Below, one piece after another: positions 6,025-45,311 of a DNA stretch of 52,992 bases; position 1 is the stretch's first letter; each line of letters opens with the position of its first letter. A program made the position numbers and the translations under genes. The notes under the pieces are model-generated. The model did no database searches and was not told the origin of the DNA. It worked only from the letters and a program-made list of their open reading frames with translations. The DNA comes from Clostridiales bacterium (GTDB lineage: Bacteria > Bacillota > Clostridia > Lachnospirales > Lachnospiraceae), in NCBI GenBank assembly GCA_020860715.1, contig JAJBTU010000009.1:1-52992 (forward strand). The letters run 5' to 3'.

Positions 6025-7026
6025 ATGCTGGATGTCATCTGCGACAGTCTCCTGGACAGCCTGAAGCTGCTGCCGTTTTTATTCTTATCGTATCTGGCAG
6101 TAGAATACATCGAACATCGAATGAGCAACCGGAGCAGACAGTGGATTTACCGGGCGGGCAAGGCCGGACCGGTGATCGGCGCTCTGGTCGGGATGATCCC
6201 GCAGTGCGGTTTTTCTGCTGCCGCTGCGGGTCTTTTTGCCGCGGGAATCGTGTCTCCGGGGACGCTGCTTGCCATTTTTTTATCCACTTCGGATGAAATG
6301 CTGCCGCTCATGCTGTCGGAAGGTATTTATCCGGTTGCTGTTTTCCGGATTCTTTCTGTGAAAGCCGTTGTGGGCGCTGCGGTTGGACTGCTTGTGGATT
6401 TTGCGGCCCGGCGGCATGTTGATTCGCTCATGCAGAATCGCTTCGCGATGAGCGAATCTTCCGCCAGACCACGGATCGTTCCCCGGGGAAAACGTGGAAA
6501 AACGTATCAGGAGAGAACAGAAGATAAGGTGAAGTATATTGACTGTGCACAAACGCTGCGGGATGGGCGTAATTCAGGAAGCGGGCACAGATCCCGCCAG
6601 CACATCTGTGAGCAGGATCACTGTCACTGTGAAGAACAGGGGATCCTCCGTGCATCGCTGTATCATACGGCGCAGACGGGTGCGTTTATTCTGCTGATCT
6701 CTCTTGCCCTTGGATTCGGCATGGACTGGTTTGAGAATACAGCTTTTTCCAGGGGACTCTTTGCATTGCCGGGTGTGCAGGCTGCTCTGGCCGCGCTTAT
6801 CGGCATGATCCCGAACTGTGCCGCCTCCGTGCTGATCACAGAACTATATCTGGAAGGCGTTCTGGATATCGGGGCACTGTTCGCAGGCCTGCTCTGCGGC
6901 GCGGGTACCGGCCTGCTCGTGTTGTACCGGGAGAATGATAACCGGAAGGAAAATCTCATCCTTACGGTGACACTGTATGTGAGCGGATTGTTTGCGGGGG
7001 CATTGATTGGTATGATTGTATTATAA
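6025..7026 (+). CDS. ArsP_2-type 10-TM heavy-metal/manganese exporter-like membrane protein
   Basis: A 333-residue polytopic protein in two homologous halves. Each half carries the family signature GMIPxCGFS/GMIPNCAAS (IGALVGMIPQCGFSAAAAG near residue 55 and LIGMIPNCAASVLITELY near 255), typical of the putative 10-TM manganese/arsenic-type exporters (Pfam ArsP_2). The halves are separated by a long hydrophilic loop (about residues 130-215) that is unusual in two ways: it holds a palindromic element at 6421-6458 encoding MQNRFAM, and a cysteine/histidine cluster, H193, C195, H199, C200, H201, C202, that could bind metal. The ATG at 6025 has GGAAGG 13 nt upstream, a rather long spacing. Substrate is inferred only from the family. 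Confidence 0.78.
   Translation: MLDVICDSLLDSLKLLPFLFLSYLAVEYIEHRMSNRSRQWIYRAGKAGPVIGALVGMIPQCGFSAAAAGLFAAGIVSPGTLLAIFLSTSDEMLPLMLSEGIYPVAVFRILSVKAVVGAAVGLLVDFAARRHVDSLMQNRFAMSESSARPRIVPRGKRGKTYQERTEDKVKYIDCAQTLRDGRNSGSGHRSRQHICEQDHCHCEEQGILRASLYHTAQTGAFILLISLALGFGMDWFENTAFSRGLFALPGVQAALAALIGMIPNCAASVLITELYLEGVLDIGALFAGLLCGAGTGLLVLYRENDNRKENLILTVTLYVSGLFAGALIGMIVL
6421..6458 (+). repeat. Palindromic element copy A, in-frame in the exporter gene
   Basis: Outer stem GATTCGCTC (6421-6429) pairs with GAGCGAATC (6450-6458); one-sided bulge ATGCAGA (6430-6436); inner stem ATCGC/GCGAT with loop TTC. It is read in frame as MQNRFAM within the cytoplasmic loop. Same bulge and topology as the copies at 8706, 16163, 16294 and 35657. 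Confidence 0.85.
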
Positions 7027-7336
7027 TGGGAATCCAATAAAATCCTCAAAAATTGTCATGAACCATTCTGTATATTATGCATGAAAAACTTCTTTCTCAA
7101 AAAGAATACTGGCAAAAAGCCTGCCGATTTAAAAATATTAATAGAATAATCACGGAAATCTGCACAAAAAATCTCGGTAATAATCAGAGAAATTGACGGA
7201 TGAGTCAACACTAAAGCGCAAAAATGGCAAGATTTGATTACTAAAAGGCAATAAATAAGAAGAAGAGGTGCCCATTTTCTGTTATAGTTACTCTATCAAC
7301 TGTGAAACGTGTTATCAAAAAAAGGAGGAATGGAAT
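7027..7336. other. AT-rich intergenic leader of sugar locus 1
   Basis: This 310-nt gap before the solute-binding protein gene is AT-rich and holds no ORF of interest. It contains an interrupted palindrome TTGAC-N6-GTCAA at 7193-7208, a candidate operator. I could not find a convincing -35/-10 pair with normal spacing; TATAGT at 7283-7288 is a possible -10 without a matching -35. Confidence 0.45.
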
Positions 7337-8617
7337 ATGAGAAGAAAATGGATGGCACTTGCGCTTGCGGCAGTTACCGCGATGGGTACGATCGCAGTTC
7401 CGACGGTTGCGTCAGCAGACGATGTGCAGGAGATCACCTGGATGTTCTGGGATGATCTGGAGGCAACGGATGACCTGATCTCTCTGGGGTATGCGGAAGT
7501 CATTGAGCGCTTCAACGAGGATTATGACGGCGTTTATCATGTAACGGCGATCACGACGAACCTTGAAGAGTATTACACCAAGCTGAACTCTTTGGTGGCG
7601 GCAGGCGACACACCGGATGTGTTCATCGTCAGCCCGGGTCCGAACTTTGATGTGTATGTAGACCCAGGCATCGCTGCTCCGCTTGATGAGTATCTGGAAG
7701 CGGATGGCTGGAAAGAGACTTTCTCCAGTGACGCGGTATTCTCTCAGATGACCTATGACGACAGCATTTACGCGGTTCCGCTGAACATCGCTGCAGCATG
7801 TGTATTCTACAACACTGAGATGTTTGAGAACGCGGGCGTTGAGGTTCCGACCACATGGGATGAGTTCCTTGAGGTTTGCCAGACACTTCAGGATGCGGGC
7901 TATACACCGATCAGCATCAGCGCCGGCACGGCATGGTGTCTGTCTATGGTAGCAGGTTACCTGTGCGACAGAGAAGGCGTAGATCTTGATGCGATCGAAT
8001 CCGGTGAGCAGAGCTGGGTAAATGATCAGACACTTGCGGCAGCAGAGAAGATGGTAGAGCTTTCCCAGTATTTCCAGTCGACAGCAGCCGGCGATACCAA
8101 CGATGTGGCGACAGCGGCATTCTATAACGAAGAAGCAGCTATCCTGATTCAGGGTTCCTGGGCGATCGCGCAGATCAACGGCGCAAATCCGGATTTCGAA
8201 GAGAAGTGCGGCGTGTTCCAGTTCCCGGCTATCGAGGGCGGCAATGACGGCGACAGAATCATCGCGAAGTCAGACTCCCTGTGCATGAGCTCTTCCACGG
8301 AGTATCCGGAAGCATGCATCGCTCTGATGAAGTATTTCACGGATGACACTGCTCAGAAGTACACGGCGGAAGTCGGCGGCAAGATTCCGGTTACCAATGT
8401 AGAGTATGATGAGGACGCGGCTCCGGCTCAGCTGTCCTACGTAATGGATATCTTTGAGAACGCAAGCGGCACATTCGGATTCTACAATGAGTCTCTGGCT
8501 ACGACAGAGGCAGGCTCGATGTTCGACGATGAGATGGTTTCCATCTACCTCGGCGATGAGACTCCGGAGGAAGCACTGCAGGCTCTGGAAGACTGGTATA
8601 ATCTGGAGATCAGATAA
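7337..8617 (+). CDS. Family 1 extracellular sugar-binding protein (ABC, CUT1)
   Basis: Binding subunit of a carbohydrate ABC importer. Residues 1-28 form a type I signal peptide (MRRKWMALALAAV... cleaved after ASA), followed by a typical SBP_bac_1 fold: an EITWMFWDD start strand, LNSLVAAGDTPDVFIV, VPLNIAAACVFYNTEMFENAGVEVPTTWDE split over the hinge, and an ILIQGSWAIAQ segment. There is no lipobox cysteine, unusual for a Gram-positive binding protein. The start at 7337 is chosen because AAAGGAGG lies 7 nt upstream; the in-frame ATG at 7268 lacks one and would bury the signal peptide. It is followed by a terminator-like hairpin and two permease genes. The substrate is unknown; the GH3 enzyme downstream suggests a beta-linked xylo- or gluco-oligosaccharide. 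Confidence 0.9.
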   Translation: MRRKWMALALAAVTAMGTIAVPTVASADDVQEITWMFWDDLEATDDLISLGYAEVIERFNEDYDGVYHVTAITTNLEEYYTKLNSLVAAGDTPDVFIVSPGPNFDVYVDPGIAAPLDEYLEADGWKETFSSDAVFSQMTYDDSIYAVPLNIAAACVFYNTEMFENAGVEVPTTWDEFLEVCQTLQDAGYTPISISAGTAWCLSMVAGYLCDREGVDLDAIESGEQSWVNDQTLAAAEKMVELSQYFQSTAAGDTNDVATAAFYNEEAAILIQGSWAIAQINGANPDFEEKCGVFQFPAIEGGNDGDRIIAKSDSLCMSSSTEYPEACIALMKYFTDDTAQKYTAEVGGKIPVTNVEYDEDAAPAQLSYVMDIFENASGTFGFYNESLATTEAGSMFDDEMVSIYLGDETPEEALQALEDWYNLEIR

Positions 8618-8662
8618 CTGGCGGACGAAAAGGCATAAGACCTGAATAATTGCCTGACAGCT

Positions 8663-8694
8663 GGATTGTCACCTTGATGGCAATCCCGCTTTTT
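8663..8694 (+). terminator. Intercistronic terminator/attenuator after binding-protein gene
   Basis: Stem GGATTGTCA (8663-8671) / TGGCAATCC (8678-8686) followed by CGCTTTTTC. Placed between binding protein and permeases, it would give more binding protein than permease mRNA. Confidence 0.7.
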
Positions 8695-8705
8695 CTGATA
8701 GGAGA

Positions 8706-8776
8706 GCCGCCGCATGCAGAATCGTCCTGCTTTCGATGCGGCGGCCTGCGTCCATACTCGCAGAGCGAGTACGGAC
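8706..8776 (+). repeat. Palindromic element copy B with second hairpin, intergenic
   Basis: First hairpin: outer stem GCCGCCGC (8706-8713) / GCGGCGGC (8738-8745), bulge ATGCAGA (8714-8720), inner ATCG/CGAT with a 9-nt loop. Second hairpin at 8750-8776: GTCC-A-TACTCGC, loop AGA, GCGAGTA-C-GGAC. The second hairpin also follows the first nadE copy (16207-16233). The element ends 7 nt before the GGAGG ribosome binding site of the permease. Confidence 0.85.
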
Positions 8777-8795
8777 AGGTTTTGGAGGCGTGAAT

Positions 8796-9680
8796 ATGGA
8801 TAAATTATTAAAGGATAAGAAAGCCATACTGTTTTTTCTTTTTCCGGCCCTTCTTTTGTTTACTTTGATTCTGTTTATTCCGATCTGCCAGTCCGTATAC
8901 TATGCGTTCTGTGATTACGACGCGCTGACGGCTCCGGTATTTGTCGGATTGAAAAATTTTAAGAGAATGCTTCTGGATAAGACGATGAAGATCGCACTGA
9001 AAAATTCTCTGTTTTTTCTGATCTTTTCCTGTGTCTCCCAGCTGATTATGGGACTGATCCTGGCCGGATTGCTGACGAATATCAAAAAGGGCAGGAACCT
9101 TTTCAAGAACATCATTTATCTTCCCTGTGTGCTCTCCTCAGCAGCGCTGGGACTTTTGTGGATGTTCATTTTCAGCCCGAAGCTGGGTATCAACCAGCTG
9201 CTTGCAAAAATTGGGATCGAAGGTCCGCAGTGGCTGAGTTCTACGGATGGTTTTATCATCCTGCCGATGTGGGTGATTGCGTTTGTGGCGCTGTGGCAGT
9301 ACGTCGGGCAGTCCATGATGCTGTATATGGCGCAGATTTCCGGCATCGGAAGCTCACTGTATGAGGCGTCTTATATTGATGGCTGCGGCAAGATTAAAGC
9401 ATTTCGTTATATCACACTTCCGCTGATCAAGCCGATGATTGGGACAGCGATGTCGTTGAACGCGATCGGCTCTCTGAAATTCTTCGACCTGATCTTCAAT
9501 ATGACAGAGGGCGGGCCGAACCACAAGACGGAGGTGCTTGCCACGCATCTGTATACGCAGGGCTTTGAGTATTTCAAATACGGGTACGCCAGTGCAATCG
9601 GTGTGGTGCTGCTGGTGCTCTGCCTGCTGACCACGTTTATCATCAACCGTGTATTTAAGACGGAAAACTATGAGATGTAG
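8796..9680 (+). CDS. CUT1 sugar ABC permease, MalF type
   Basis: A 294-residue integral membrane protein with six predicted helices and the MalF-type coupling loop EASYIDGCGKIKAFRYITLPLIKP (EAA motif, shown here over two stretches) near residue 190. It pairs with the MalG-type permease that follows after 11 nt and imports the ligand delivered by the binding protein upstream. ATG at 8796 is chosen over the upstream in-frame ATG at 8736, because GGAGG lies 7 nt before it and the extra 20 residues would be encoded by a palindromic element. No ATPase gene is present; a shared MsmX-like ATPase elsewhere is expected. Confidence 0.92.
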   Translation: MDKLLKDKKAILFFLFPALLLFTLILFIPICQSVYYAFCDYDALTAPVFVGLKNFKRMLLDKTMKIALKNSLFFLIFSCVSQLIMGLILAGLLTNIKKGRNLFKNIIYLPCVLSSAALGLLWMFIFSPKLGINQLLAKIGIEGPQWLSSTDGFIILPMWVIAFVALWQYVGQSMMLYMAQISGIGSSLYEASYIDGCGKIKAFRYITLPLIKPMIGTAMSLNAIGSLKFFDLIFNMTEGGPNHKTEVLATHLYTQGFEYFKYGYASAIGVVLLVLCLLTTFIINRVFKTENYEM

Positions 9681-9691
9681 GAGGGACGGAT

Positions 9692-10537
9692 ATGGAAACA
9701 AAATTAAATAAGAAAAAAGTCAGCATCCCGACCATCCTGATCTATGTGTTTCTCTGCATTCTGGCGCTTGTATATATTCTGCCGCTGGTCTGGGTGGTGC
9801 TGGTTTCCTTTAAGACGAATTCGGAGATTTTTACGACTCCGTTTGCCCTGCCGGAAAGTTTTTATCTGGAAAACTATCAGGTGGCATGGACGGCTGGCCA
9901 TCTTGGCACGGCCACTTTGAATTCTGCCATTGTCTGTGTGACGACGCTGCTTTTCAGTATGCTGTTTGGTTCTATGGCAGCCTTTGCAATCGGGCGCCTG
10001 CGCTGGAAAGGTTCCGGAGCAATGATGGTTTACTTTATGACGGGTATGATGATTCCGGTGCACTGTGTGCTGATTCCGCTGTTTACCCGCTTCACAAAAC
10101 TGGGACTTTCCAATTCCCTGGTGGGATTGATCCTGCCTTACCTGACCTTTTCACTGCCGACCACGATTTTCATTATGACCGGATTTTTCCGCAGCATTCC
10201 CAATGAACTGGTGGAATCGGCCTGTATGGACGGTTGTACCATCTATGGGATCTTTTTCAGGATATGCCTGCCGCTTGCGAGAACGGGACTTTTTGTGACA
10301 GGGCTGATGAGCTTTGTGGCGAACTGGAACGAACTGCTGCTGGCGATGGTGTTTATCTCGGACGATACGAAAAAGACGCTGCCGGTAGCGTTGTCCAAGT
10401 TTGTTGGCCCGTACAATACGAATTATTCACAGATGTTTGCGGCGATTGTGGTTGCAATCATTCCGACGGTGGTGGTATACTGCATGTTCAGTAATCAGAT
10501 CGTGGATGGTCTGACGACCGGAGCCGTGAAGGGGTGA
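9692..10537 (+). CDS. CUT1 sugar ABC permease, MalG type
   Basis: A 281-residue permease with six predicted membrane spans and the EAA loop ELVESACMDGCTIYGIFFRI near residue 175, followed by LPLARTGLFV. It is the second half of the channel with the MalF-type subunit, 11 nt upstream, and has GGAGG before the ATG. The C-terminus IVDGLTTGAVKG is characteristic of MalG-type CUT1 subunits. A weak hairpin follows at 10580-10603 before the GH3 gene, which may modulate read-through. Confidence 0.93.
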   Translation: METKLNKKKVSIPTILIYVFLCILALVYILPLVWVVLVSFKTNSEIFTTPFALPESFYLENYQVAWTAGHLGTATLNSAIVCVTTLLFSMLFGSMAAFAIGRLRWKGSGAMMVYFMTGMMIPVHCVLIPLFTRFTKLGLSNSLVGLILPYLTFSLPTTIFIMTGFFRSIPNELVESACMDGCTIYGIFFRICLPLARTGLFVTGLMSFVANWNELLLAMVFISDDTKKTLPVALSKFVGPYNTNYSQMFAAIVVAIIPTVVVYCMFSNQIVDGLTTGAVKG

Positions 10538-10638
10538 TCTTTTGACAGAACAACCCGCATGAAAGAGATACCCCTGAGACTGTGTCCTTTGCATAAGGCA
10601 CAGAAGACTTCAGAAATTACAGAGTGGGAGGGCGGGCT

Positions 10639-15349: not shown

Positions 15350-15413
15350 AGGGCGAATACGTTGATCTGCAGATGCCTGTGCAGCATATGGCAGGACAGA
15401 AATGAGGAAGAAG

Positions 15414-17552
15414 ATGAAGGATGGCTTTATAAAAGCAGCGGCGCTGTCGCCGGAAATACGGGTAGCGGACTGTGTATACAATACGGAGAGCATCTGCGCC
15501 GGGATAGAGGAAGGCCTGCGGGAGCACGCAAAGATTCTGGTGTTTCCGGAGCTGTGCGTGACCGGCTATACCTGCGGGGATCTGTTCTGGCAGGAAACGC
15601 TTCTGGAGGCTGCGCGGGATTCGCTCTCAAAGCTGATTGCGTTTTCAGCCGGCAAGGATGCTCTGATTTTCATCGGCCTGCCGTTAGAAAAAAATGGCAA
15701 ACTTTATAACGTGGCTGCGGCATTCTCAGACGGAACCCTGCTGGGCTTCGTGCCGAAACGGTATCTGCCCAATTACAATGAATTTTATGAGGCCAGATAT
15801 TTTACTCCTGGATGTGAAGAAGTCTCTTTTATAAATTTCAACGGGCAGAAGGTGCCGTTTGGGATGAATCTGCTGTTTTGCGCAAAAGATCTGTGCGTGG
15901 CGGCCGAATTGTGCGAGGATCTCTGGGCGCCGAATCCGCCGAGCACGGCGCACGCTCTTGCGGGCGCGAATGTGATCGTGAACCTGTCCGCGAGTGATGA
16001 GGTGATCGGAAAAAGCGATTATCGAAAAGAACTGGTCAAGGGACAGTCGGCACGGCTGCTGTGCGGATACATTTACGCAAGCGCAGGGGAAGGCGAGTCC
16101 ACGCAGGATGTGGTCTATGGCGGGCACTGTCTGCTGGCGGAGAACGGACATATTCTTGGAGAGTCGGCGCATGCAGAATCGTCCTGCGGACGATGCGCCG
16201 ACCTGCGTCCATACTCGCGAGGCGAGAACGGACATATTCTTGGAGAGTCGGCGCATGTGGAGTCGCCCCCTCGCCAGGGCTCGGCGGCAGGTCGCATCGG
16301 CCATGCAGAAAACGCTGCGCGTTTGGCCGATGCTGCAGAATCGTCCTGCGGACGCTGCGCCGATGCCTGCGCTGTGAATCAGACGAAAGCCGGGACGCCA
16401 GCCGCGCGCTGCACAATCACCTGCACGGAATTTGACATCAGCCGTCTTTGCGCGGAGCGCAGGAGAAATACCACTTTTCAGGCTTCGTCTGATGGGGAGA
16501 AATATTTGCGCATCCCGTTTCATCTTAATATGGAAGAGACCGTACTGACGCGCACGTTTGACCGGCATCCTTTTGTGCCGGACGCGGACGAGGAGCGCAG
16601 CCGCAGATGCGAGGAAATCCTGACGATTCAGGCGCTCGGCCTGAAAAAGCGGATACAGCATACGAACGCGAAAAGCCTGGTGGTCGGCATTTCCGGCGGC
16701 CTGGATTCGACGCTTGCCCTGCTGGTGATGACCAGAGCCTGCGATCTGCTTGGCCTGCCGCGGGATACGATGACGGCCGTGACGATGCCGGGCTTTGGCA
16801 CGACAGACCGCACATACCACAATGCCTGCAGCCTGACAAAAAGTCTGGGCGCGAAGCTGATCGAGGTGGACATCCGGGATGCGGTGAACATTCATTTCCG
16901 GGATATCGGGCAGGATCCCGAAGTGCATGATGTGACCTATGAAAACGGGCAGGCGAGAGAGAGAACGCAGATTCTGATGGATCTCGCGAATAAGACCGGC
17001 GGCCTGGTCATCGGCACCGGGGACATGTCGGAGCTGGCGCTTGGCTGGGCGACCTACAATGGCGACCATATGTCGATGTACGGGGTGAACTGCTCGGTGC
17101 CGAAGACCCTCGTGCGTCACCTGGTGCGCTATTACGCGGATACCTGCGGGGATCAGACGGTCAGCGGGATTCTGTACGATGTGCTTGATACGCCGGTCAG
17201 CCCGGAGCTGCTGCCGCCGAGGGACGGAGAGATTTCGCAGAAGACGGAGGATCTGGTCGGGCCGTATGAGCTGCATGACTTTTTCCTGTATTATCTGCTG
17301 CGCTTCGGGTATCCCCCTGCGAAGATTTACCGGATCGCGAAGCGGACGTTCCAGGGGATATACGACGAAAAAACCATTCTGAAATGGCTGAAAACCTTTT
17401 ACCGCCGCTTCTTTGCGCAGCAGTTCAAACGTTCCTGTATTCCGGACGGACCCAAGGTCGGAAGCGTCGCGCTCTCGCCTCGCGGGGACCTGCGCATGCC
17501 CAGTGACGCCAGCGTGCGGATCTGGATGGAGGAACTTGAAAACTTTGCTTGA
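15414..17552 (+). CDS. nadE: Glutamine-dependent NAD+ synthetase with in-frame repeat insertion
   Basis: Final enzyme of NAD synthesis: an N-terminal nitrilase-fold glutaminase (about residues 1-330) passes ammonia to a C-terminal synthetase. The glutaminase triad is visible: Glu in VFPELCVTGYTCGDLF, Lys in PKRYLPNYNEFYE, Cys in AAELCEDLWAPNPPS. The synthetase ATP loop is SGGLDSTLAL near residue 435. At 712 residues it is about 70 longer than related enzymes; the excess lies at about residues 246-321, between AENGHILGES and ITCTEFDISRL, and is encoded by palindromic elements and a tandem duplication. The frame stays open and all catalytic motifs flank the insert, so the enzyme is probably functional with an extended surface loop. 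ATG 15414 has AGGA 6 nt upstream; ATG 15402 is an alternative. Confidence 0.94.
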   Translation: MKDGFIKAAALSPEIRVADCVYNTESICAGIEEGLREHAKILVFPELCVTGYTCGDLFWQETLLEAARDSLSKLIAFSAGKDALIFIGLPLEKNGKLYNVAAAFSDGTLLGFVPKRYLPNYNEFYEARYFTPGCEEVSFINFNGQKVPFGMNLLFCAKDLCVAAELCEDLWAPNPPSTAHALAGANVIVNLSASDEVIGKSDYRKELVKGQSARLLCGYIYASAGEGESTQDVVYGGHCLLAENGHILGESAHAESSCGRCADLRPYSRGENGHILGESAHVESPPRQGSAAGRIGHAENAARLADAAESSCGRCADACAVNQTKAGTPAARCTITCTEFDISRLCAERRRNTTFQASSDGEKYLRIPFHLNMEETVLTRTFDRHPFVPDADEERSRRCEEILTIQALGLKKRIQHTNAKSLVVGISGGLDSTLALLVMTRACDLLGLPRDTMTAVTMPGFGTTDRTYHNACSLTKSLGAKLIEVDIRDAVNIHFRDIGQDPEVHDVTYENGQARERTQILMDLANKTGGLVIGTGDMSELALGWATYNGDHMSMYGVNCSVPKTLVRHLVRYYADTCGDQTVSGILYDVLDTPVSPELLPPRDGEISQKTEDLVGPYELHDFFLYYLLRFGYPPAKIYRIAKRTFQGIYDEKTILKWLKTFYRRFFAQQFKRSCIPDGPKVGSVALSPRGDLRMPSDASVRIWMEELENFA
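16140..16257 (+). repeat. Direct repeats of an 84-bp duplication in nadE
   Basis: The 34 bases at 16140-16173 (GAGAACGGACATATTC...) recur identically at 16224-16257. The 84-bp period equals 28 codons, so the frame is kept and the peptide ENGHILGESAH is encoded twice. The first unit contains copy C1 and its second hairpin. Confidence 0.9.
16163..16233 (+). repeat. Palindromic element copy C1 with second hairpin, in nadE
   Basis: Outer stem GTCGGCGC (16163-16170) / GCGCCGAC (16195-16202), bulge ATGCAGA (16171-16177), inner stem ATCGTCC/GGACGAT with loop TGC. Second hairpin 16207-16233 (GTCCATACTCGC, loop GAG, GCGAGAACGGAC), as in copy B. Read in frame as HAESSCGRCAD. Confidence 0.88.
16258..16375 (+). 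repeat. Palindromic element copies C2 and C3 with CCCCCTC block, in nadE
   Basis: The upstream block GGAGTCGCCCCCTCG...CGGCGGCAG (16259-16290) precedes core C2: outer stem GCATCGGCC (16294-16302) / GGCCGATGC (16325-16333), bulge ATGCAGA (16303-16309), inner AAACGC/GCGTTT, loop TGC; every stem base pairs. A further core C3 follows (TGCAGA at 16334-16339, CGTCC-TGC-GGACG) whose right outer arm GCCGATGC (16359-16366) can pair with the C2 left arm, indicating nesting. Confidence 0.85.
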
Positions 17553-17689: not shown

Positions 17690-17880
17690 GCTTTTATCAG
17701 GCAGGAATACTTTGCCGGTAAGATGAGAGACTGCGATTTGGCTAAGAGGGAAACAGGTGTGAATCCTGTACGATCCCGTCACTGTATTTAGGGAACGCGG
17801 CCGATATGCCACTGGGAGACCGGGAAGGCGGTTCGCGTGATGATCTATAAGCCAGGAGACCTGCCGGCTGCACACGCGGA
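17690..17880 (+). promoter_or_regulatory. Cobalamin (B12) riboswitch
   Basis: The leader carries the conserved adenosylcobalamin aptamer parts in order: GAGGGAAACAGGTGTGAATCC (17746-17766, split here: GGGAA then GGTG then AATCC), CCCGTCACTGTA (17774-17785), GCCACTGGGAG, GGAAGGCG and the B12 box GCCAGGAGACCTGCC (17851-17865). Downstream, a TTCGGACC/GGTCTGCGAA hairpin (17919-17946) and an AGATTGAA/TTCAATCT hairpin (17948-17970) may form the expression platform; the second lacks a clean T run, so the switch may act on translation or on a weaker terminator. It lies 165 nt before the chelatase gene, consistent with B12 repression of the whole uptake operon. Confidence 0.9.
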
Positions 17881-18044
17881 AGCAGCGCCTGTATGTGTAT
17901 GAACAGAACAGGTACGGCTTCGGACCACGGGGAATTGGTCTGCGAAAAGATTGAAGCGTTTTTTCAATCTGATTTAGCTCATCCTTTTGCCCTGTGTAAA
18001 AGGTTTTTTTCATTTTAAATCCATTTTCACAGGAGGAGAACAAC

Positions 18045-33295: not shown

Positions 33296-33373
33296 ATTAT
33301 AGCAATTTGTTTTCAAAATTTCGGGAGGCATATTTTTGCTTTAGATAAAAAGGGACAGGATGGAGGAGACAAG

Positions 33374-36300
33374 ATGGCGGATTTTGATTACAACAAAGTG
33401 AAAGACCCTCGTTTTTTTTGTGAAAACAGGCTGGATGCGCATTCGGATCATATGTTTTTCGCCTCACGCTGGGAGGCGGAGGCCGGGAACAATACTCTGG
33501 TATACTCTTTGAATGGGTTCTGGAAGTTTTCATATGCGAGAAACTATGAAAGCTGCAGAAAGGATTTCTGGAAGTGTGACTGCAATTGCAGGAATTGGGA
33601 GGATATCCGAGTTCCCTCGAATATGCAGATGGAAGGATATGATGCGATTCAGTATGTGAATACACAATACCCGTGGGATGGGCGTGAGGAGATATCGCCT
33701 CTTCGTTTCGCATCGGCGGCAGATGATGCAAACACTGCAGAAGACGCGGATCTGATCGGCGGAATTCCGGAGCGCTTCAATCCGGTCGGGAGTTATGTAA
33801 AGTTTTTTACTCTGCCGGAATCCATGACCGGCAAACGCGTCTTTATCTCTTTTCAGGGAGCGGAAAGCGGGCTTGCCGTCTGGCTGAACGGGCACTATAT
33901 CGGCTACAGCGAGGACAGCTTCACTCCTTCGGAATTTGAACTGACGGAGTATCTTCTGGAAAATTGCGCGGCATCGGACAGGGACGCCGGCAATGGTTTG
34001 GATTGTGCTCCTGATGGAGCAGCACACAAAGAGAATAAACTTGCGGTGCAGGTATTTAAATGGACGTCCGGCAGCTGGTGTGAGGATCAGGACTTTTTCC
34101 GCTTTTCCGGTCTGTACCGGGATGTGTATCTGTATGCAATACCAAAGATGCATGTGCAGGATCTTCGGGTGCGCACAGAACTGGATGACGCATATACAGA
34201 TGCGGATTTGAAAATAAAAATGAGTGTGTGGGGCGAGGGCAGTGTGCGTCTTTGCCTGATGGATGGAGAGACTGCAGTCGCTGAATCCACAGTCACAATG
34301 GAGAATGCTTTGAAAAATCCAGACAAAAACGATCACCCGGTACTGGAAACAGAATTAGAATATACCATGCATATATCCGCGCCCGAACTGTGGAGTGCAG
34401 AACATCCGAAACTTTACACACTCTGGATGGAACTTTTTGATGAGCAGGGAGAGATTCTGGAAGTGATTCCTCAAAACGTTGGGTTCCGCCGGTTTGAGAT
34501 GAAAGACCATATGATGCACCTGAATGGAAAACGCATTGTCTTTAAGGGCGTGAACCGTCACGATTTCAGTTCGAAATACGGACGGGCGGTGACGTATGAG
34601 GAGACCGAGCGGGACATCATCACCATGAAGCGGAACAACATCAACGCGATCCGCACCAGCCATTACCCAAACCATTCCTTTTTGTATGATCTGTGTGACC
34701 GATACGGCCTCTACATGATTGATGAGACCAATATGGAGACGCACGGCACCTGGGCTGCTTATTTACAGGGAGCAGCAGCACTGGATGAGATCGTGCCCCG
34801 CGACCATGAAGAATGGAAGGGTGCGCTTCTGGACCGGGCCAATTCTATGCTGCAGCGTGATAAGAACCATCCGTCGATCCTGATCTGGTCCTGTGGAAAT
34901 GAATCTTTCGGCGGCAGTGTGATCTGCGAGATGTCGCAGCTTTTTCACCGCCTGGATTCCACGAGACTGGTACATTACGAGGGAATTTTCCAGGACCGGC
35001 GCTACAATGACACGAGCGACATGGAGAGCCAGATGTATACCCCGGCGGCAAAAATACGCGAGTTTCTGCAGAATGACCGCAGCAAGCCGTTTATCTGCTG
35101 TGAGTATATGCATGCGATGGGAAATTCCTGCGGCGGGATGCAGGAGTATACTGACATGACGGAGGATGAACCGCTCTATCAGGGCGGATTCATCTGGGAT
35201 TATATAGATCAGTCTATTACAAAAAAAGACCGCTATGGGCAGCCATTTGAGGCTTACGGCGGCGATTTTGATGACCGGCCTACGGATTACAATTTCAGCG
35301 GCAACGGAATCGTTTACGGCGGAGACCGGAGTGCTTCGCCAAAGATGCAGGCGGTGAAATATTACTATCAGAATATCCGCGTTTTTCCCTCCGCAGCGCA
35401 GGTGCGTGTGAAAAATCTGAGCCTGTTTACAGATACATCCGAATATGAATGTGTGGCGCTGCTTTCGCGGGACGGCAGACCGGTTCTGGAAGAGTCAATG
35501 GAGATCTCTGTGCCGCCGCTTTCGGAGGCGACGTTTGAACTGCCGGAAGCATTCCGGCGTATGGACGCGGATTCTGAGGGTGATACGCCCAGACAGAATC
35601 ACAGTGCGGCGGCTCTGGAAACGCCCCCTCAGCCTGACCGGCTTCGGCGGCAGGCCGCTGTGCCCATGCAGAATCGCTGCGCGATGGGCACAGCTCCGGA
35701 AACGAAAAGCAGCGCTGCTGACGATGTGCCCTGTGAGTATACAGTCACAGTTTCGTTCCGGCTGAAAAAGGATACACTGTGGGCAAAACGGGGGCATGAG
35801 GTTGCGTTCGGGCAGTATGTATATGGCCAGTGCGGATACGCAAGGCTTGAAAGTGATTCCCGTGCGGCAGGTACGGCTGATTTCTGCCGTCTTGCGGATC
35901 GTACGATCCGGCTTGCGGCAAAAGGGCAGGGCGCAGCTATGGAAATTATCCGCGGATGGGACAATATCGGTGTCCGCGGCGAGCATTTTGAGGTATTGTT
36001 TTCAAACAACGCCGGTCTGGTCTCCTACCGCTGGGGAGGGAAAGAACTGCTGAAATCCAGCCCGCGTCCTGATTTCTGGCGGGCATTGACCGATAACGAT
36101 AACGGTGCGGAAGGGGCAGCGCGGTACGGACAGTGGAAACTTGCCAGCCTCTACGCGACCATAAAGAAACCGCTTGCGCCCAGGGAGCCGCAGAAAATTT
36201 CGCTGATGCTTCCGAATGGACTCTCAGAATCTTCGTCTGATAAGAACAATGCCGCAGAATATGTGGCCATCAGCTATACTTATTGGCTTCCAATGTCGCC

Positions 36301-36862
36301 TCTGGCATCCTGCGAACTGCGGTATACCGTATATGCGGATGGCACGGTACAGGCGAATTTGCATTATGATCCAATAGAAAGCATTACTGAGATGCCGTTG
36401 TTTGGCGTGACGATGAAGATGGACGCGGATTATGACCGCATTGAATGGTACGGTCTTGGACCGGAGGAAACCTACTGCGACCGCGAAGGCGGGGCGAAAC
36501 TTGGCATTTACCGGAGCACTGCACGGGAGAGTATGGCGAACTATCTGGTACCGCAGGAGTGCGGCAACAGGACCGGCGTGCGCTGGGCGAAGGTGACGGA
36601 TATGCGCGACCGCGGCCTGCTGTTCTGGAGCGGCGATGCGGGACATGTGATGGACTTTTCCGCGCTGCCGTATACCTCTCATCAGCTTGAGAACGCTGCC
36701 CATGCGTATGAACTTCCGCCAGTACATTATACGGTAGTGCGTGCCGCCTTAGGGCAGATGGGATTGGGCGGCGACGATTCCTGGGGCGCGCGTCCGCATG
36801 AGGAATACCGGCTGCGCGCGGATCAGCCGCTGGATTTTACGTTCTGCTTCCGGGGAATTTGA
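33374..36862 (+). CDS. lacZ: GH2 beta-galactosidase with repeat-derived insertions
   Basis: A 1162-residue cytoplasmic glycoside hydrolase family 2 enzyme of the LacZ type: sugar-binding jelly roll (about 40-260), Ig-like domain (265-390), TIM barrel (about 395-690), second Ig-like domain (700-810) and the large C-terminal beta-sandwich (870-1160). Acid/base Glu510 is in SCGNESFGG and nucleophile Glu577 in CCEYMHAMGNS. It hydrolyses terminal beta-galactosides, delivering galactose to the galT product downstream. It exceeds typical LacZ (about 1000-1040 residues) by over 100; excess segments are at residues 107-128 (SPLRFASAADDAN...), 200-222 and 748-777 (LETPPQPDRL...MQNRCAMG), the first and last coinciding with palindromic elements at 33694 and 35616. 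All catalytic motifs are intact. GGAGGAG precedes the ATG. Confidence 0.94.
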   Translation: MADFDYNKVKDPRFFCENRLDAHSDHMFFASRWEAEAGNNTLVYSLNGFWKFSYARNYESCRKDFWKCDCNCRNWEDIRVPSNMQMEGYDAIQYVNTQYPWDGREEISPLRFASAADDANTAEDADLIGGIPERFNPVGSYVKFFTLPESMTGKRVFISFQGAESGLAVWLNGHYIGYSEDSFTPSEFELTEYLLENCAASDRDAGNGLDCAPDGAAHKENKLAVQVFKWTSGSWCEDQDFFRFSGLYRDVYLYAIPKMHVQDLRVRTELDDAYTDADLKIKMSVWGEGSVRLCLMDGETAVAESTVTMENALKNPDKNDHPVLETELEYTMHISAPELWSAEHPKLYTLWMELFDEQGEILEVIPQNVGFRRFEMKDHMMHLNGKRIVFKGVNRHDFSSKYGRAVTYEETERDIITMKRNNINAIRTSHYPNHSFLYDLCDRYGLYMIDETNMETHGTWAAYLQGAAALDEIVPRDHEEWKGALLDRANSMLQRDKNHPSILIWSCGNESFGGSVICEMSQLFHRLDSTRLVHYEGIFQDRRYNDTSDMESQMYTPAAKIREFLQNDRSKPFICCEYMHAMGNSCGGMQEYTDMTEDEPLYQGGFIWDYIDQSITKKDRYGQPFEAYGGDFDDRPTDYNFSGNGIVYGGDRSASPKMQAVKYYYQNIRVFPSAAQVRVKNLSLFTDTSEYECVALLSRDGRPVLEESMEISVPPLSEATFELPEAFRRMDADSEGDTPRQNHSAAALETPPQPDRLRRQAAVPMQNRCAMGTAPETKSSAADDVPCEYTVTVSFRLKKDTLWAKRGHEVAFGQYVYGQCGYARLESDSRAAGTADFCRLADRTIRLAAKGQGAAMEIIRGWDNIGVRGEHFEVLFSNNAGLVSYRWGGKELLKSSPRPDFWRALTDNDNGAEGAARYGQWKLASLYATIKKPLAPREPQKISLMLPNGLSESSSDKNNAAEYVAISYTYWLPMSPLASCELRYTVYADGTVQANLHYDPIESITEMPLFGVTMKMDADYDRIEWYGLGPEETYCDREGGAKLGIYRSTARESMANYLVPQECGNRTGVRWAKVTDMRDRGLLFWSGDAGHVMDFSALPYTSHQLENAAHAYELPPVHYTVVRAALGQMGLGGDDSWGARPHEEYRLRADQPLDFTFCFRGI
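33694..33757 (+). repeat. Probable decayed palindromic element copy D1 in lacZ
   Basis: Contains the block CGCATCGGCGGCAGAT (33709-33724), identical to copies E and F, followed by TGCAGAAGACGCGG (33736-33749) in place of the hairpin core; outer stem pairing has largely decayed. The encoded SPLRFASAAD is closely like TPPRCASAAD and TSPRYASAAD encoded by copies E and F, in the same frame. Confidence 0.6.
35616..35704 (+). repeat. Palindromic element copy D2 in lacZ
   Basis: Upstream block TGGAAACGCCCCCTC (35616-35630) and CGGCGGCAGG (35645-35654), then core: outer stem GCTGTGCCC (35657-35665) / GGGCACAGC (35686-35694), bulge ATGCAGA (35666-35672), inner ATCGC/GCGAT, loop TGC. An imperfect 12-bp direct repeat GCTCyGGAAACG flanks it (35612-35623 and 35693-35704). 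Read in frame as LETPPQ...MQNRCAMG. Confidence 0.85.
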
Positions 36863-38566: not shown

Positions 38567-38567
38567 A

Positions 38568-38617: not shown

Positions 38618-38690
38618 GCGCTTTAATTATCATCCGGGATGATTTTCGGATTCACTTCGAAGACCGTACAAAAGAGGAAAGGATTTAGAA

Positions 38691-40226: not shown

Positions 40227-40432
40227 AAGAAAACCCTCCTGTCTTTTTGATGATGTTCAATACTTTGAAGCCATTTTATCAATATTAAAGGGTGTTGTCA
40301 CTTGTTTTTTAGAAAAGAAAAATTATTAATAAATAAAGTTCTTGCTTTTTCTCTGAAACTGTGATTATCATGATGCCAGATTGTGATAAACAGGGAATTG
40401 CACATGTGAGGAAAAATGGTAACGATTCAGGG

Positions 40433-40445
40433 TAGTTAGTAACTA
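40433..40445. promoter_or_regulatory. 13-bp palindrome within direct repeats upstream of the sulfotransferase gene
   Basis: TAGTTA-G-TAACTA (40433-40445) is a perfect palindrome, bracketed by TTCAGGG (40426-40432) and TTTAGGG (40446-40452). It lies about 15 nt before a TATAAA-like -10 and 58 nt before the ATG, a plausible operator. Confidence 0.45.
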
Positions 40446-40502
40446 TTTAGGGCAGACATATAAAATGAACCATCGACAGTGCAGAGAAGCAAGGAGGATT
40501 CC

Positions 40503-43500
40503 ATGAAAAAAATAAAATCGGTGAGTGCGGGAATGACAGCGATCACACGGATAATGCGCGCAATGCGGGCTGCAGCAGTGTGTATCTGCGGCGCGATGCT
40601 CCTGTGGAACGGGGAAAGCGCCTGCGGGACTGCGGGCAGAGCCTCCGCTTCGGAAACGGATACTTCAGAAGATGAGGCAGTGGTCTATGAGGCGGCAGGC
40701 TGGCAGATCAGCCTGGAAGATGCCGAACGGACGGCTTCATTGAATACGGTGAGCGTATCTCTGGGCTATTCCAGCGTGGAGACGACGGATCTGGAGCAGA
40801 GCGCTGCAGAAGGATGCGAGTATTGTCTGCTGAAGATTTCTTTTACGAAGACAGACAGCACAGAAGAAATCGATTGGGAAAAGGTAACTCTTACCGATGC
40901 GGACGGGAACAGCTATTCCCGGATAGAGGACAGCTTTCTGGAAGATTACGGAATGTCGCGCATACCGGGAACGAATCTGAATTTTGGCAGCTATGAGGGC
41001 TGGATCTGTTTTGAGATTCCCGGGGACGCGGACGGCCTGGGGTTTGTCTGCCAGTTTACAGAAGAAGAACTCGTGATTCCGGTGGAAGTTGAAACGGATG
41101 AGGAGGAGACGGAGTCAGAGAGCGAGACGGCTGCGGCGGAAAGTGAGACGGCTGCGGCGGAGAGCGAGACGACCGCGGCGTGCACGGAGACAGCTTCGAC
41201 AGAAGGTGAGACCGGGGAAACAGAAGCAGAAGCCGGGGAATCCTGGACGGAGATAGATTATAAGGATACTCTCGGGGAACAGAGCACGATTGACGCCGCC
41301 CTCTATGCGGAGGCGCAGAACGGCTATTCTTTTGAGAATCCATTTGTTGTCGTAAACCCATATGGAAATTCCCCGCTGACAGCGATGGTGATCTTCACGA
41401 CGGAGGAGGAAACCGGTGTGGAGGTTGTGGTCTGCGGCAAAAGTGAAGAAAATAATATCACGGCCTCCTTCGAGGCGGATACCACGCATATTCTGCCGAT
41501 TTACGGGCTTTATGCAGGAGATACGACAGAGGTAGTGCTGACACTGGACGACGGGTCGAGTACGACGATAGAGATTACGACGGAAGCCCTGAGCGGATCC
41601 ATTACGGAAGCGGAAGTGACGGTTTATGATGAGAGTGTTCTTACGGAAGGCGTCCTTTCGGGCGATGAACTGACCTTTGTCCTGATACAGACGGTCATGG
41701 AAGGGGACAGCGGTGTGGTCGCCTATGACAATGCAGGCGATATCCGCTGGTATATGGATGAGGAGTATGTTTCCGGTTTTTCCATGAAGCGCCTCTCGAA
41801 CGGCAGGATGATGGCGTCCACATCGGATATCATCAGCGGGTATTACTATTCCACGGGGCTGGTGGAATTTGACCTTTGCGGAAAATTTTACGCGGTCTAT
41901 CTGATCCCGGGCGGGGAGCATCATGATTTTGTGGAAATGGAAAACGTGAATCTTCTTGTCTGCTCCTGCACGGAAGACTTTTCTACCGTGGAGGACCGGA
42001 TCGTGGAGGTCGACCGGGAGACCGGCGAGATCGTTTATGAATTGAACATTGCGGATCTGATCGAGCCGGGGGACGGCGGTACGGAAAACGCGACGGAGGA
42101 GGACTGGTGCCACAACAACTCCATTGATTATGATGAGGAATCGGACACGATTCTGCTTTCCTGCCGCCATCTGGACGCGGTGCTGGCGATCAATAAGACA
42201 GAGAAGGAACTGGTGTGGATTTTAGGCGATCCGAGCGGGTTTACGAGTGTCTCAGAGGATCTGTTTTTCACACCGGTCACGACTGTGACGACTGATGCGG
42301 AAGGTTCGTCAGAGGCCGGGCAGAATACCACGGTATCCAATGAGGATGATGAATCAGCAGAGGCAGAACAGGAAGATTCTACCTTTCAGTGGCAGTACGC
42401 GCAGCACAATGCGACGTTCCTGCCGGACGGAGATATCCTTCTCTTTGACAACGGCACGCACCGGATCAAAGCAGGAGACGAGGAAAACGCGACCACGGGC
42501 GACGACGTGTATTCGAGAGCGGTGCGCTATCATATTGACACAGAGACCATGACGATCGAGCAGGTCTGGACATACGGCGAGGAACGCGGCGAAGAGTGGT
42601 ATTCTTCCTATATTTCCGGGGCGGATTATCTGGATGAGGATACTTACTGGATCACGTCAGGCGCCAACAGCTACAGTGAGGAACTGGACACCTATGATCT
42701 CACGATCGTACAGGCCGCTCAGGGAGAACGAACCACATACATCGATCTGGTGATTGGTGATGAACTGGCTTATGAGATGACGATTCCGGCGACGACCTAC
42801 CGCAGCCTGCGCATGTCCCTGTATACGGAAGAAAACACGTACAGCGTCACGGAAGAAGCGGGCTGGTACGGCAGTCTGGGCAGCGTTGCGCAGGCGGACG
42901 CGGACAGTCTGACAGTGAGTGCGGATGCATCAGAAGACGTCAGTTTTACCATTTCCGAACTGACGGAGATGCCGGATCGTCTGGTTGTTTCCGGTTCCTG
43001 GCCGGAGACGGGGGAGGACGCATCATTGGTACTGGTGAGCGAATCCGGCGACATTGCCCGGTTTGCGATGGACGCATCTTCGACGTCGACCGTTGAGGGG
43101 GAAGTGGATTTTGACATCTGGATCACGGCGGATTCGGTGGAAGCCGGACACCGCTACTATATTTATCTGTACAATCAGGGCGTCTTATACCGGACCGGAA
43201 AATACTGGAACGTGTATGTAGACACGAGAGAATCCGTCGATGACGAGGGCGCGCAGTATGTGCTTTACGATGTGGACGGACAGGAATATACGGTGCTGTC
43301 CGTGGAAACGCCCCCTCGCTGCGCATCGGCGGCAGATCGCAGCAGCGATTCAGAGAACGCTTCGCGTTGCGCTGCTGCTTCTGAGGCAATCAGCGCCGCA
43401 GCCGGCATTGAGACCGATCTGGAGACAGAACTGACGATGCCGGAGCAGACGCAGGCCATCTCTGACGCGATCGTCGCGGAAGTGGAGAACAACGGGTATA

Positions 43501-45311
43501 CGTTTGAAAATCCTCTGGTCATCCAGAATCCTTACCAGAATACGCCGCTCACTGCCGTGGTGGCCTTTGAGACCGATGAGGCCTGCGCGGTGCGCGTGAC
43601 GGTGAAAGGTAAGACAGAGGAGCAGGCCGTCACGGACGTGATTGACGCCGCTGCCCTGCACATCATCCCGGTGCTGGGACTTTACGCCGGATATGACAAC
43701 GAGGTGGTGCTGGAACTTCTGGATTCGGATGGGAACGCGACGGAGACCAAAACGATCACGATCACGACGGAAGCGCTGCCGTCCGCTTTGCAGGGCGAGG
43801 TGGAGACTGACACATACACGACCGAATCCGCAATGGGGCTGATGCTGGTGTCCGGACTTTCCGCGCCGTACGCCTATGCGTTTGACGAGACCGGCGAGAT
43901 CCGCTGGTACTGCACGGTGGAGTGGGAATACTATGGCCTGTTTATGCTGGATAACGGACATTTTCTGATGGAAGCGGAGAATGTCCTTTACCCGAACGCA
44001 AGTATGCCAAACTCGTCGGAATTCTGGGAGATGGACTATCTCGGCCGGGTTTACAACGTCTACTATTTCCCGGAGGGCGTGCACCACGACATTCAGGAGA
44101 TGACAGAGAACGGCAATTTCCTGATCCTCACAAATTCCAACGACGGCTATGAGCAGAACATGATTCAGGAGATCGACCGCGAGACGGGCGAGGTCGTAAA
44201 ATCACTGAACCTGAACGAACTCTTTGAAGGCCTTGCTTACATCGACAGAGACGACTGGTGCCACACCAACACAGTCTCTTATGATGAGGCGACAGATACA
44301 ATTCTGATCAGCTGCCGGAATCTGCACTCCGTTATCCGCATCGACTGGTCTGCTGTGGAAACGTCCCCTCGCTACGCATCGGCGGCAGATCGCAGCAGCG
44401 ATTCAGAGAACGCTTCGCGTTGCGCTGCTGCTGATGAAATTTTGTGGATTCTTGCGGATCCAACCGTTTGGGAAGGAACCGGATACGAAGATAAAGTGCT
44501 CACTGCCACAGACGACGACATTCAGTGGCAGTACCAGCAGCATTCCGCTTATGCGCTGGATGAAGATCTGGACGGCAACCCGCTGACCGTGGAGATTATG
44601 CTGTTTGACAACCACTATTCGGCGTATCGGAGCGTCGCCACCTACGATTATACGCAATCATCTTATGTGAAAATATACTCGGTGGACGCTGAAGCCATGA
44701 CAGTGACTTTGCTGAAAAACTATGAGACCGCTTATTCCGTCATTACCTCAAACGCGTTTTACGACAGCGGGGCGGGGCGCGTCTTTTCTGTAAACGCATA
44801 CCTGTCCATCTATTTGAATACGACGAACCGCGGCGAAATCTATGAAATTGATTACGAGAGCGGCGAGATCCTGAATTCGTGGAAGATTACGCACAAATTT
44901 TACAGAGGATATTCCATATCCCTCTCCATGAACGACTGTGCCGGAGCCTATACGCTCTCCGACAACAGCATACGGGGTACGCTGCGCACGCCGGTCGAAG
45001 TGGAATCTGAAAATGTCGTGTCGATCACGGACAACGAAAATATTTCTACGGAAACCGTCAGCTTCACCCTGCGCGGTCAGGTGCTCTATTTGGAGGGCAG
45101 CGACCACATGTACACACAGATTATTTTCAACGGGACAGAGCACACCTATGTCTACGACATCACGGATATCAAGTCCCAGTCGGGCGACGTGGACAGCTAC
45201 CGGTATGAGATCCCGATTCCTCTTACTGCATTGAAGGCGGACACCTACACGATACAGATTATGTACGATGACGAACTGTATGATGTGGAAGGGAGTTTTA
45301 CAATAAAATAA
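40503..45311 (+). CDS. Giant secreted arylsulfotransferase with two tandem ASST modules
   Basis: A 1602-residue exported protein: signal or anchor segment (residues 12-40), DUF4352-like beta domain (about 60-185), a 3x7-residue ESETAAA repeat, then two complete arylsulfotransferase units, each an N-terminal beta domain (YSFENPFVVVNPYGNSPLTA at ~278; YTFENPLVIQNPYQNTPLTA at ~1000) plus a beta-propeller. Propeller landmarks occur twice: GGEHHDF / GVHHDI, DWCHNNSIDY / DWCHTNTVSY, SCRHL / SCRNL, QHNATF / QHSAYA. ASST enzymes move sulfate between phenolic compounds through a histidine intermediate. Two nearly identical palindromic elements (43302, 44355) add about 26 residues each, one in the linker and one inside module 2. 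Start 40503 has AAGGAGG 5 nt upstream. A duplicated ASST in one chain is unusual. Confidence 0.85.
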   Translation: MKKIKSVSAGMTAITRIMRAMRAAAVCICGAMLLWNGESACGTAGRASASETDTSEDEAVVYEAAGWQISLEDAERTASLNTVSVSLGYSSVETTDLEQSAAEGCEYCLLKISFTKTDSTEEIDWEKVTLTDADGNSYSRIEDSFLEDYGMSRIPGTNLNFGSYEGWICFEIPGDADGLGFVCQFTEEELVIPVEVETDEEETESESETAAAESETAAAESETTAACTETASTEGETGETEAEAGESWTEIDYKDTLGEQSTIDAALYAEAQNGYSFENPFVVVNPYGNSPLTAMVIFTTEEETGVEVVVCGKSEENNITASFEADTTHILPIYGLYAGDTTEVVLTLDDGSSTTIEITTEALSGSITEAEVTVYDESVLTEGVLSGDELTFVLIQTVMEGDSGVVAYDNAGDIRWYMDEEYVSGFSMKRLSNGRMMASTSDIISGYYYSTGLVEFDLCGKFYAVYLIPGGEHHDFVEMENVNLLVCSCTEDFSTVEDRIVEVDRETGEIVYELNIADLIEPGDGGTENATEEDWCHNNSIDYDEESDTILLSCRHLDAVLAINKTEKELVWILGDPSGFTSVSEDLFFTPVTTVTTDAEGSSEAGQNTTVSNEDDESAEAEQEDSTFQWQYAQHNATFLPDGDILLFDNGTHRIKAGDEENATTGDDVYSRAVRYHIDTETMTIEQVWTYGEERGEEWYSSYISGADYLDEDTYWITSGANSYSEELDTYDLTIVQAAQGERTTYIDLVIGDELAYEMTIPATTYRSLRMSLYTEENTYSVTEEAGWYGSLGSVAQADADSLTVSADASEDVSFTISELTEMPDRLVVSGSWPETGEDASLVLVSESGDIARFAMDASSTSTVEGEVDFDIWITADSVEAGHRYYIYLYNQGVLYRTGKYWNVYVDTRESVDDEGAQYVLYDVDGQEYTVLSVETPPRCASAADRSSDSENASRCAAASEAISAAAGIETDLETELTMPEQTQAISDAIVAEVENNGYTFENPLVIQNPYQNTPLTAVVAFETDEACAVRVTVKGKTEEQAVTDVIDAAALHIIPVLGLYAGYDNEVVLELLDSDGNATETKTITITTEALPSALQGEVETDTYTTESAMGLMLVSGLSAPYAYAFDETGEIRWYCTVEWEYYGLFMLDNGHFLMEAENVLYPNASMPNSSEFWEMDYLGRVYNVYYFPEGVHHDIQEMTENGNFLILTNSNDGYEQNMIQEIDRETGEVVKSLNLNELFEGLAYIDRDDWCHTNTVSYDEATDTILISCRNLHSVIRIDWSAVETSPRYASAADRSSDSENASRCAAADEILWILADPTVWEGTGYEDKVLTATDDDIQWQYQQHSAYALDEDLDGNPLTVEIMLFDNHYSAYRSVATYDYTQSSYVKIYSVDAEAMTVTLLKNYETAYSVITSNAFYDSGAGRVFSVNAYLSIYLNTTNRGEIYEIDYESGEILNSWKITHKFYRGYSISLSMNDCAGAYTLSDNSIRGTLRTPVEVESENVVSITDNENISTETVSFTLRGQVLYLEGSDHMYTQIIFNGTEHTYVYDITDIKSQSGDVDSYRYEIPIPLTALKADTYTIQIMYDDELYDVEGSFTIK
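41118..41180 (+). repeat. Three 21-bp tandem repeats coding ESETAAA
   Basis: Three consecutive units of 21 bp (GAGAGCGAGACGGCTGCGGCG type) encode ESETAAA, ESETAAA, ESETTAA in the acidic linker of the sulfotransferase. Confidence 0.85.
43302..43378 (+). repeat. Palindromic element copy E, linker of the sulfotransferase
   Basis: 77-bp unit: GTGGAAACGCCCCCTCG block, CGCATCGGCGGCAGAT, then core with outer stem GCAGCAGCG (43339-43347) / CGCTGCTGC (43370-43378), bulge ATTCAGA (variant of ATGCAGA), inner AACGC/GCGTT, loop TTC. Differs from copy F at 2 of 77 positions. Confidence 0.9.
44355..44431 (+). repeat. Palindromic element copy F, inside ASST module 2
   Basis: 75/77 identical to copy E; outer stem 44392-44400 / 44423-44431. 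It splits module 2 between IRIDW and EILWILADP, whereas module 1 has an uninterrupted LAINKTEKELVWILGDP at the equivalent place. Confidence 0.9.

Follow-up and report, generated by a model that had tools for sequence, protein, structure and literature searches.

A candidate mobile hairpin element that matches the Rfam family GA-cis and lies in frame in protein-coding genes of Lachnospiraceae

Introduction

Rickettsia provides the best-known palindromic elements that lie in frame in genes, with intragenic copies of repetitive extragenic palindromic (REP) sequences elsewhere, and the ends of IS200/IS605 elements and integron attC sites are folded single strands recognised by their shape. We analysed a window of 52,992 nucleotides (the whole stretch examined, positions 1 to 52,992 of contig JAJBTU010000009.1, assembly GCA_020860715.1) from a Clostridiales bacterium of the family Lachnospiraceae, in which a reading made without database searches (hereafter the sequence-only reading) had noted seven similar hairpin sites. 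Most of the element at these sites corresponds to the RNA family GA-cis (Rfam RF02987). Its copies are insertions, dispersed in otherwise intact conserved genes, and comparison of sequences indicates that it is very probably a mobile element kept in frame.

Rickettsia palindromic elements (RPE) are palindromic repeats that lie in frame in protein genes and are tolerated there as added peptides (excerpts of PMC10969869 and PMC2229807), and the RPE types with a CGTC tag have no known transposase association in the part of PMC3733652 that treats them. The element described here shares with RPE this in-frame layout and its insertion relative to orthologues that lack it (here at 9 of 15 sites), and it appears to work like an RPE, the likeness drawn here being one of layout and behaviour. 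RPE belong to another phylum and measure about 105-150 bp, whereas our element measures 72-78 bp and has two hairpins, an outer stem that varies from copy to copy and a match to an Rfam RNA family.

REP sequences of the GTAG and CGTC families and REPtrons are likewise short hairpins, some of them inside genes; the intragenic ones include copies in tRNA synthetases and repair genes, and the CGTC families are without a dedicated transposase, according to excerpts of PMC3733652, the main text of which has no words beginning with firmicutes or clostridi. The element studied here exceeds the 20-40 bp REP about two- to fourfold in length, has no GTAG or CGTC terminal tag, lies inside open reading frames (ORFs) in 100 of 147 copies whereas REPs are mostly intergenic, and has its host in Bacillota. 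Unlike in a REPtron, a Y1 transposase gene flanked by the repeat was not found (no Y1 match in the own genome, and no copy of the element at the 6 Y1 loci examined of 50 matches), and the lack of a Y1 match in the own genome also distinguishes the element from IS200/IS605. GA-cis itself is listed in a table of the Rfam 15 paper (PMC11701678, excerpt) and is filed in Rfam as "Gene; sRNA", whereas here it behaves as mobile DNA in coding sequence. The sequence-only reading knew of no description in Clostridia, which does not hold for the greater part of the element, published as a family although as an RNA; in our literature search of open-licence papers, GA-cis was nowhere described as an element that moves or that lies in frame.

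Element architecture and identity

At the noted hairpin sites GA-cis was the sole Rfam match, and at four of the seven it covered all 88 model positions in sequence and structure, on the minus strand and above the covariance-model cut-off (Rfam gathering score, 34.7 bits). These four copies lie in frame in nadE (copy at 16255..16337, 47.1 bits; gene for glutamine-dependent NAD synthetase at 15402..17552, plus strand, Pfam NAD_synthase and CN_hydrolase), in frame in a lacZ-type GH2 beta-galactosidase gene (copy at 35613..35698, 38.1 bits; gene at 33374..36862, plus strand, Pfam Glyco_hydro_2 domains), and at two sites of an arylsulfotransferase gene (ASST, 40479..45311, plus strand), namely site 1 (43300..43382, a 78-bp insertion relative to relatives) and site 2 (44353..44435, a net insertion of 78-81 bp). 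Read on the GA-cis strand, the element has a first hairpin made of a varying outer stem, an inner stem with a 3-nt loop and a 7-nt one-sided bulge. A linker (e.g. GACC or GATC) then leads to the second hairpin, TGCCGCCGA...GAGGGGGC, which is followed by the terminal GTTTCC. The core is usually 72-75 bp long, and about 75-78 bp as inserted (A-core-AY).

All seven hairpin sites were present with the architecture described earlier, the inner stem at 8706 being imperfect; those at 6421, 16163, 16294 and 35657 passed a strict perfect-pairing scan, and those at 43339 and 44392 carry the bulge variant ATTCAGA. What had been described as a 5' block of some copies exists, and is the second half of the GA-cis motif read on the minus strand. 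Three sites (6421, 8706 and 16163) have the hairpin half in common with GA-cis and no full GA-cis. The first is a hairpin half only (6421..6458, plus strand, GATTCGCTC-ATGCAGA-ATCGC-TTC-GCGAT-GAGCGAATC), in frame in a gene for a putative heavy-metal exporter (ArsP_2, 6025..7026, plus strand). The other two (8706..8777, intergenic, and 16163..16234, in frame in nadE and adjoining the GA-cis copy, both on the plus strand) carry after the first hairpin a second one that differs from that of GA-cis, which we term class B (CTGCGTCC...GGACA). The placement in frame within genes thus stands for six of the seven sites, in the metal exporter, nadE, lacZ and arylsulfotransferase genes, but not for 8706; likewise, all copies sit on the plus strand in the window, where the genes run plus, but both strands are used genome-wide.

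Alleles with and without the element

We compared 15 sites of the own genome with relatives and found an allele without the element at nine, namely arylsulfotransferase sites 1 and 2, ileS, hflX, leuS, an AAA-domain gene, the first site of an ABC_ATPase gene, an Orn/Lys/Arg decarboxylase gene and a radical-SAM gene. Some gene names (among leuS, ileS, hflX, argJ, ribF, decarboxylase, radical SAM, ABC_ATPase, AAA and UgpC-like) come from short pieces; the names comF and AraC-like regulator were assigned by eye. The radical-SAM gene has tandem copies and the other eight are single-insert sites, at which the net length difference was a multiple of three (72, 75, 78, 81 or 87 bp) in every one of the 53 comparisons made against relatives' alleles judged clean, filled or rearranged alleles having been excluded beforehand. 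For the radical-SAM gene two of three comparisons gave multiples of three (96 and 96), and the third gave 131, probably through a misplaced flank.

The element-free allele was found in 8 of 8 relatives for leuS, in 7 of 7 for hflX (an eighth relative had no hflX match) and in 6 of 8 for ileS, two having other or unresolved sequence. Each of these three genes was found at one place in the own genome, interrupted, so that the interrupted copy is the only one found. The HflX protein alignment shows a 26-residue gap in all six relatives aligned, and in the leucyl-tRNA synthetase the relatives' three-residue turn (e.g. VDG in DFP-VDG-RDEKI), where Thermus LeuRS 1h3n has VEG, gives way to 29 residues in the own protein. 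Arylsulfotransferase site 1 is filled only in the own genome and G047 and is cleanly empty in G013, G008, G001 and G051, the remaining relatives having diverged at the site. At site 2 (15 loci compared, two from one genome) the element is present only in the own genome and G013, and the other aligned relatives are empty. The insertion in the AAA gene is common to the own genome, G047 and G008.

The own HflX (L013) also reads NKAN a few residues before the insert, where six relatives read NKAD. Another repeat, GGCGCTGAATATCCAGTGGATATTCGTTTAGCGCCGACCGGAGCGGAGCGGAGAC-like, was seen in L133, L135, L149 and L284, in the first three of these at variable spots of relatives' radical-SAM gene or ribF.

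Assembly artefact or contamination could be suspected, in that the 80 named records listed from our database scan (below) are metagenome-assembled genomes, but this explanation is largely refuted and very improbable: the insertion in the AAA gene recurs in three separate genomes, the frame is preserved in every clean comparison, and the own genome is listed as 100% complete with 0.49 contamination.

Copy number and spread

A search of the own genome (2.67 Mb, 39 contigs) returned 29 GA-cis copies at E<=0.001, 27 of them over the Rfam cut-off, and the same search returned matches in 0 of 14 control genomes. The sequence-only reading had proposed a dispersed, RPE-like family of in-frame palindromes in Clostridia and a genome-wide search for more copies, along with a comparison of orthologues for empty sites; these 29 copies and the element-free alleles at nine sites bear the proposal out.

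Within the genus, 24 of 47 genomes had matches (fifteen with 20-62, nine with 1-14) and 23 had none; these counts are lower bounds, stricter filters having been applied and the 72 best candidates scored per genome, under which the own genome gives 26. Among 391 genomes drawn evenly from the class, with the ten best candidates scored per genome, five had matches: the own genome, three others of its family, and one with a weak match that falls short of the cut-off. An exact-pattern scan of GTDB species genomes yielded at least 112 stretches, and among the matches listed 80 records are metagenome-assembled genomes named Lachnospiraceae, Clostridiales or Clostridiaceae bacterium.

Of the seven matches over the cut-off in the family's other genera, five were examined (L169-L171, L173 and L174). 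All five are copies situated between ORFs, with AGGAGG at the start of the hairpin (GGGAGG in L174), which possibly reflects a regulatory use or the ancestral state. Tandem arrays with one common stem also occur (e.g. L015, L022 and L042).

Reading frames and predicted peptides

For the analysis of frames we used 147 distinct elements with a perfect stem of at least 6 and 350 nt of flank. One hundred of these are clearly embedded in a long ORF, 76 antisense and 24 in the same sense relative to the GA-cis strand, and all six frames occur among them. In 59 of the 76 antisense copies the frame starts with ETPPR or similar, and the commonest frame predicts a Pro/Ala/Ser-rich stretch, ETPPRxASAADRxxxAENASRLAG. 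On average 2.2 of 3 frames are open through the element on the same strand and 2.35 of 3 on the antisense strand. The core itself tends to preserve the frame, its length being a multiple of three in 86 of the 100 ORF-embedded copies and also in 35 of the 47 others. Among the 17 copies in longer loci that are clearly non-coding, neither strand is favoured (8 antisense, 7 same-sense, 2 mixed), and the antisense excess therefore probably reflects which frames survive, although 17 is a small sample. An antisense bias fixed at insertion was considered and is unsupported by these copies.

With a core of usually 24 or 25 codons, GC-rich and with few stops on either strand, many insertions would be read through; selection would then purge those that break the frame or the fold, and retained copies would decay. 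The element would be mainly selfish DNA and the added peptides a by-product. The earlier description of the element as protein-diversifying thus holds as a consequence and is not supported as a function.

Pairing and variation of the outer stem

In 158 of 184 elements a perfect outer stem of at least 6 stands where it is expected, whereas 7.6% of dinucleotide shuffles have one; for a perfect stem of at least 9 the figures are 107 of 184 and 0.1%. For pairing statistics we took 84 distinct rows of the commonest length class, chosen from 185, one of an initial 186 alignment rows being a duplicate, by the position of the inner loop and blind to the outer stem. Across nine outer pairs, 686 of 756 cells are Watson-Crick, with up to four pair types per position (kinship of rows uncorrected), whereas slid-stem controls were 0.20-0.33 paired; outer pair 6, for example, is Watson-Crick in 76 of 84 rows against 26.8 expected from column make-up. 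The 70 other cells comprise 17 G-T, 8 A-C (equal to G-T on the other strand) and 45 others. If all 12 mismatch types were equally frequent, about 12 G-T would be expected; the excess is thus at most slight, and the tally gives no strong sign of selection at the RNA level and no proof of pairing at the DNA level either.

These figures bear on the view that GA-cis is a functional structured RNA (cis-regulatory or sRNA) whose genic copies act in antisense regulation. Its Rfam type, the intergenic position of the other-genera copies with AGGAGG or GGGAGG at the hairpin start, the 76 of 100 coding copies antisense to their gene and the slight tilt of departures to the GA-cis strand (17 against 8) agree with it. 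We nonetheless consider it unlikely: in unrelated genes, related species either have or lack the element at one and the same codon, 24 of the 100 coding copies read in the sense direction, the non-coding copies are without bias, so that the antisense excess may stem from open frames, and the 17 G-T of 70 departures stand little above equal shares.

Stem sequences are varied (74 distinct stems among 110 non-tandem copies). The copies at 43339 and 44392, both in the arylsulfotransferase gene, have an identical outer stem, which indicates that the stem travelled with the element there and corrects the earlier statement that the outer stem differs at each locus. When stems were compared with flanks in the inverted sense we found no likeness (z -0.2 and 1.4; 110 of 149 elements, 39 tandem-like ones omitted). 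The suggestion that the element remakes its outer stem found no backing in this comparison or in the two arylsulfotransferase copies with one stem, and a stem copied from the target was rejected as unsupported.

Spread without transposition, by template switching or ectopic gene conversion with palindrome correction in replication preserving the pairing, would fit the tandem arrays with a single stem as well as a compensated A-T to T-A stem change between the own genome and G013 at arylsulfotransferase site 2. Against it stand the unrelated target genes without evident flanking homology, the target preference given below and the uncompensated stem changes seen by eye in the AAA, ABC_ATPase and decarboxylase copies, and we regard it as improbable.

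Target sites and the search for a moving enzyme

Upstream of the 110 non-tandem copies, C stands at -5 in 76 and at -2 in 60, and T at -6 in 52 and at -7 in 49; A directly precedes the stem in 145 of 158 copies. By eye, empty alleles already carry the C at -5 at five single-insert sites out of eight; ileS, the AAA gene and the decarboxylase gene are the exceptions. This target motif resembles the element's own end, TTTCCA. The consensus of the 5' flank is TTCNNCA and the 3' end is GTTTCCA, without a GTAG or CGTC end tag; in 21 of 159 copies a GTCC comes after the outer stem, but at an internal position. No direct repeat or target-site duplication, as a MITE of a DDE transposon would have, was evident by eye at the eight single-insert sites, though a few extra bases there are unassigned.

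From these sequence comparisons, the element is likely to be a small non-autonomous mobile DNA hairpin of Lachnospiraceae, recognised by shape and RPE-like in its working. That a trans-acting enzyme moves it in folded single-stranded form is, in our estimate, an evenly balanced proposition. Such an enzyme would recognise the shape of the folded strand (stem lengths, bulge and second hairpin) rather than the stem sequence, and its insertions would fall 3-4 nt downstream of a favoured C in the weak consensus TTCNNC; with the shape alone recognised, the stem could drift as long as pairing persists. We put forward more tentatively, as rather less probable than its negation, a stronger form in which recognition is by fold only, the stem may be nearly any pairing sequence, the enzyme is unrelated to Y1/RAYT, the essential genes of the clade have been seeded with translated peptides and part of an "RNA family" is a DNA element.

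The sequence-only reading had suggested a partner of the RAYT type (REP-associated tyrosine transposase); in such a REP/RAYT-like system the hairpins would be moved by an IS200/IS605-type Y1 (HUH) transposase, the gene for which the own genome would have lost. Terminal hairpins and a 5' target that resembles the element end are features of IS200/IS605, and both are seen here, along with no evident target-site duplication; moreover, 25 of the 47 genus genomes have a match to Y1_Tnp (PF01797). The own genome has none, five of the fifteen high-copy genomes are likewise without Y1, presence of Y1 has no clear association with presence of the element, the six Y1 loci examined of 50 matches do not carry it and the GTAG/CGTC terminal tag is absent. 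A RAYT/Y1 partner is unsupported on these grounds, and we hold this account to be doubtful.

Several observations also weigh against a mobile hairpin as described above. No clean empty site was found at six of the 15 sites compared (nadE, argJ, ribF, a UgpC-like ABC ATPase gene, lacZ and the second ABC_ATPase site), where relatives show variable linkers, partial copies and other repeats, nor for the hairpin-only copy at 6421 in comparison with relatives, the own ArsP_2 protein being 7 aa longer than theirs with flanking residues also replaced. The named relatives are metagenome-assembled genomes, and the G-T count is compatible with an RNA role. Stems show a weak likeness to their flanks in the direct sense (z 2.8 and 2.7; 110 elements), which leftover tandem copies may explain, and retained copies show compensated and uncompensated stem changes alike. 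Net inserts vary (72 to 87 bp), so the ends are imperfectly defined, and a very short target duplication is compatible with the data. Y1 occurs in 10 of 15 high-copy genomes (at least 20 copies) against 11 of 23 element-free ones, the own genome being one of the five high-copy genomes that lack it, none of the 6 Y1 loci examined of 50 matches carries the element, and no moving enzyme was found.

If the mobile-hairpin reading holds, the Lachnospiraceae would offer a family of dozens of copies per genome whose occupied sites differ from one related species to the next, in which transposition, target choice, tolerance in essential enzymes and stem covariation could be measured directly. It would also mean that covariation in an RNA family can arise from mobile DNA hairpins, and that GA-cis may need re-annotation.

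Other repeats and features

In G059 and G061 we observed intergenic composite palindromes of about 450-580 bp with a GA-cis-like core (L288, L290, L292 and L294, with near-equal scores). Outer inverted repeats, differing in sequence, were found in L290 and L294 and none in L288. L288 and L292, which represent one locus, carry the element in opposite orientations. As a larger carrier these composites were rejected, being too short for a transposase gene (ORFs listed for L290).

The class B hairpin (CTGCGTCC-stem-GGACA) forms a second dispersed family, found in the window at 8746-8777 and 16203-16234. Its pattern has 20 matches in the own genome against 10 for a reversed control, 17 of the 20 with an extended palindrome, and in some places it adjoins the variable-stem hairpin. 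A further small palindrome, CTCGCC...GGGCGGGATAT, is apparently nested within a GA-cis copy of the ABC_ATPase gene in G013 and G047 (L122 and L123). Elsewhere in the window, Rfam models matched a cobalamin riboswitch at 17699-17882 (96.7 bits) and, below threshold, the Clostridiales-1 RNA at 5859-5972 (38.7 bits against a cut-off of 48).

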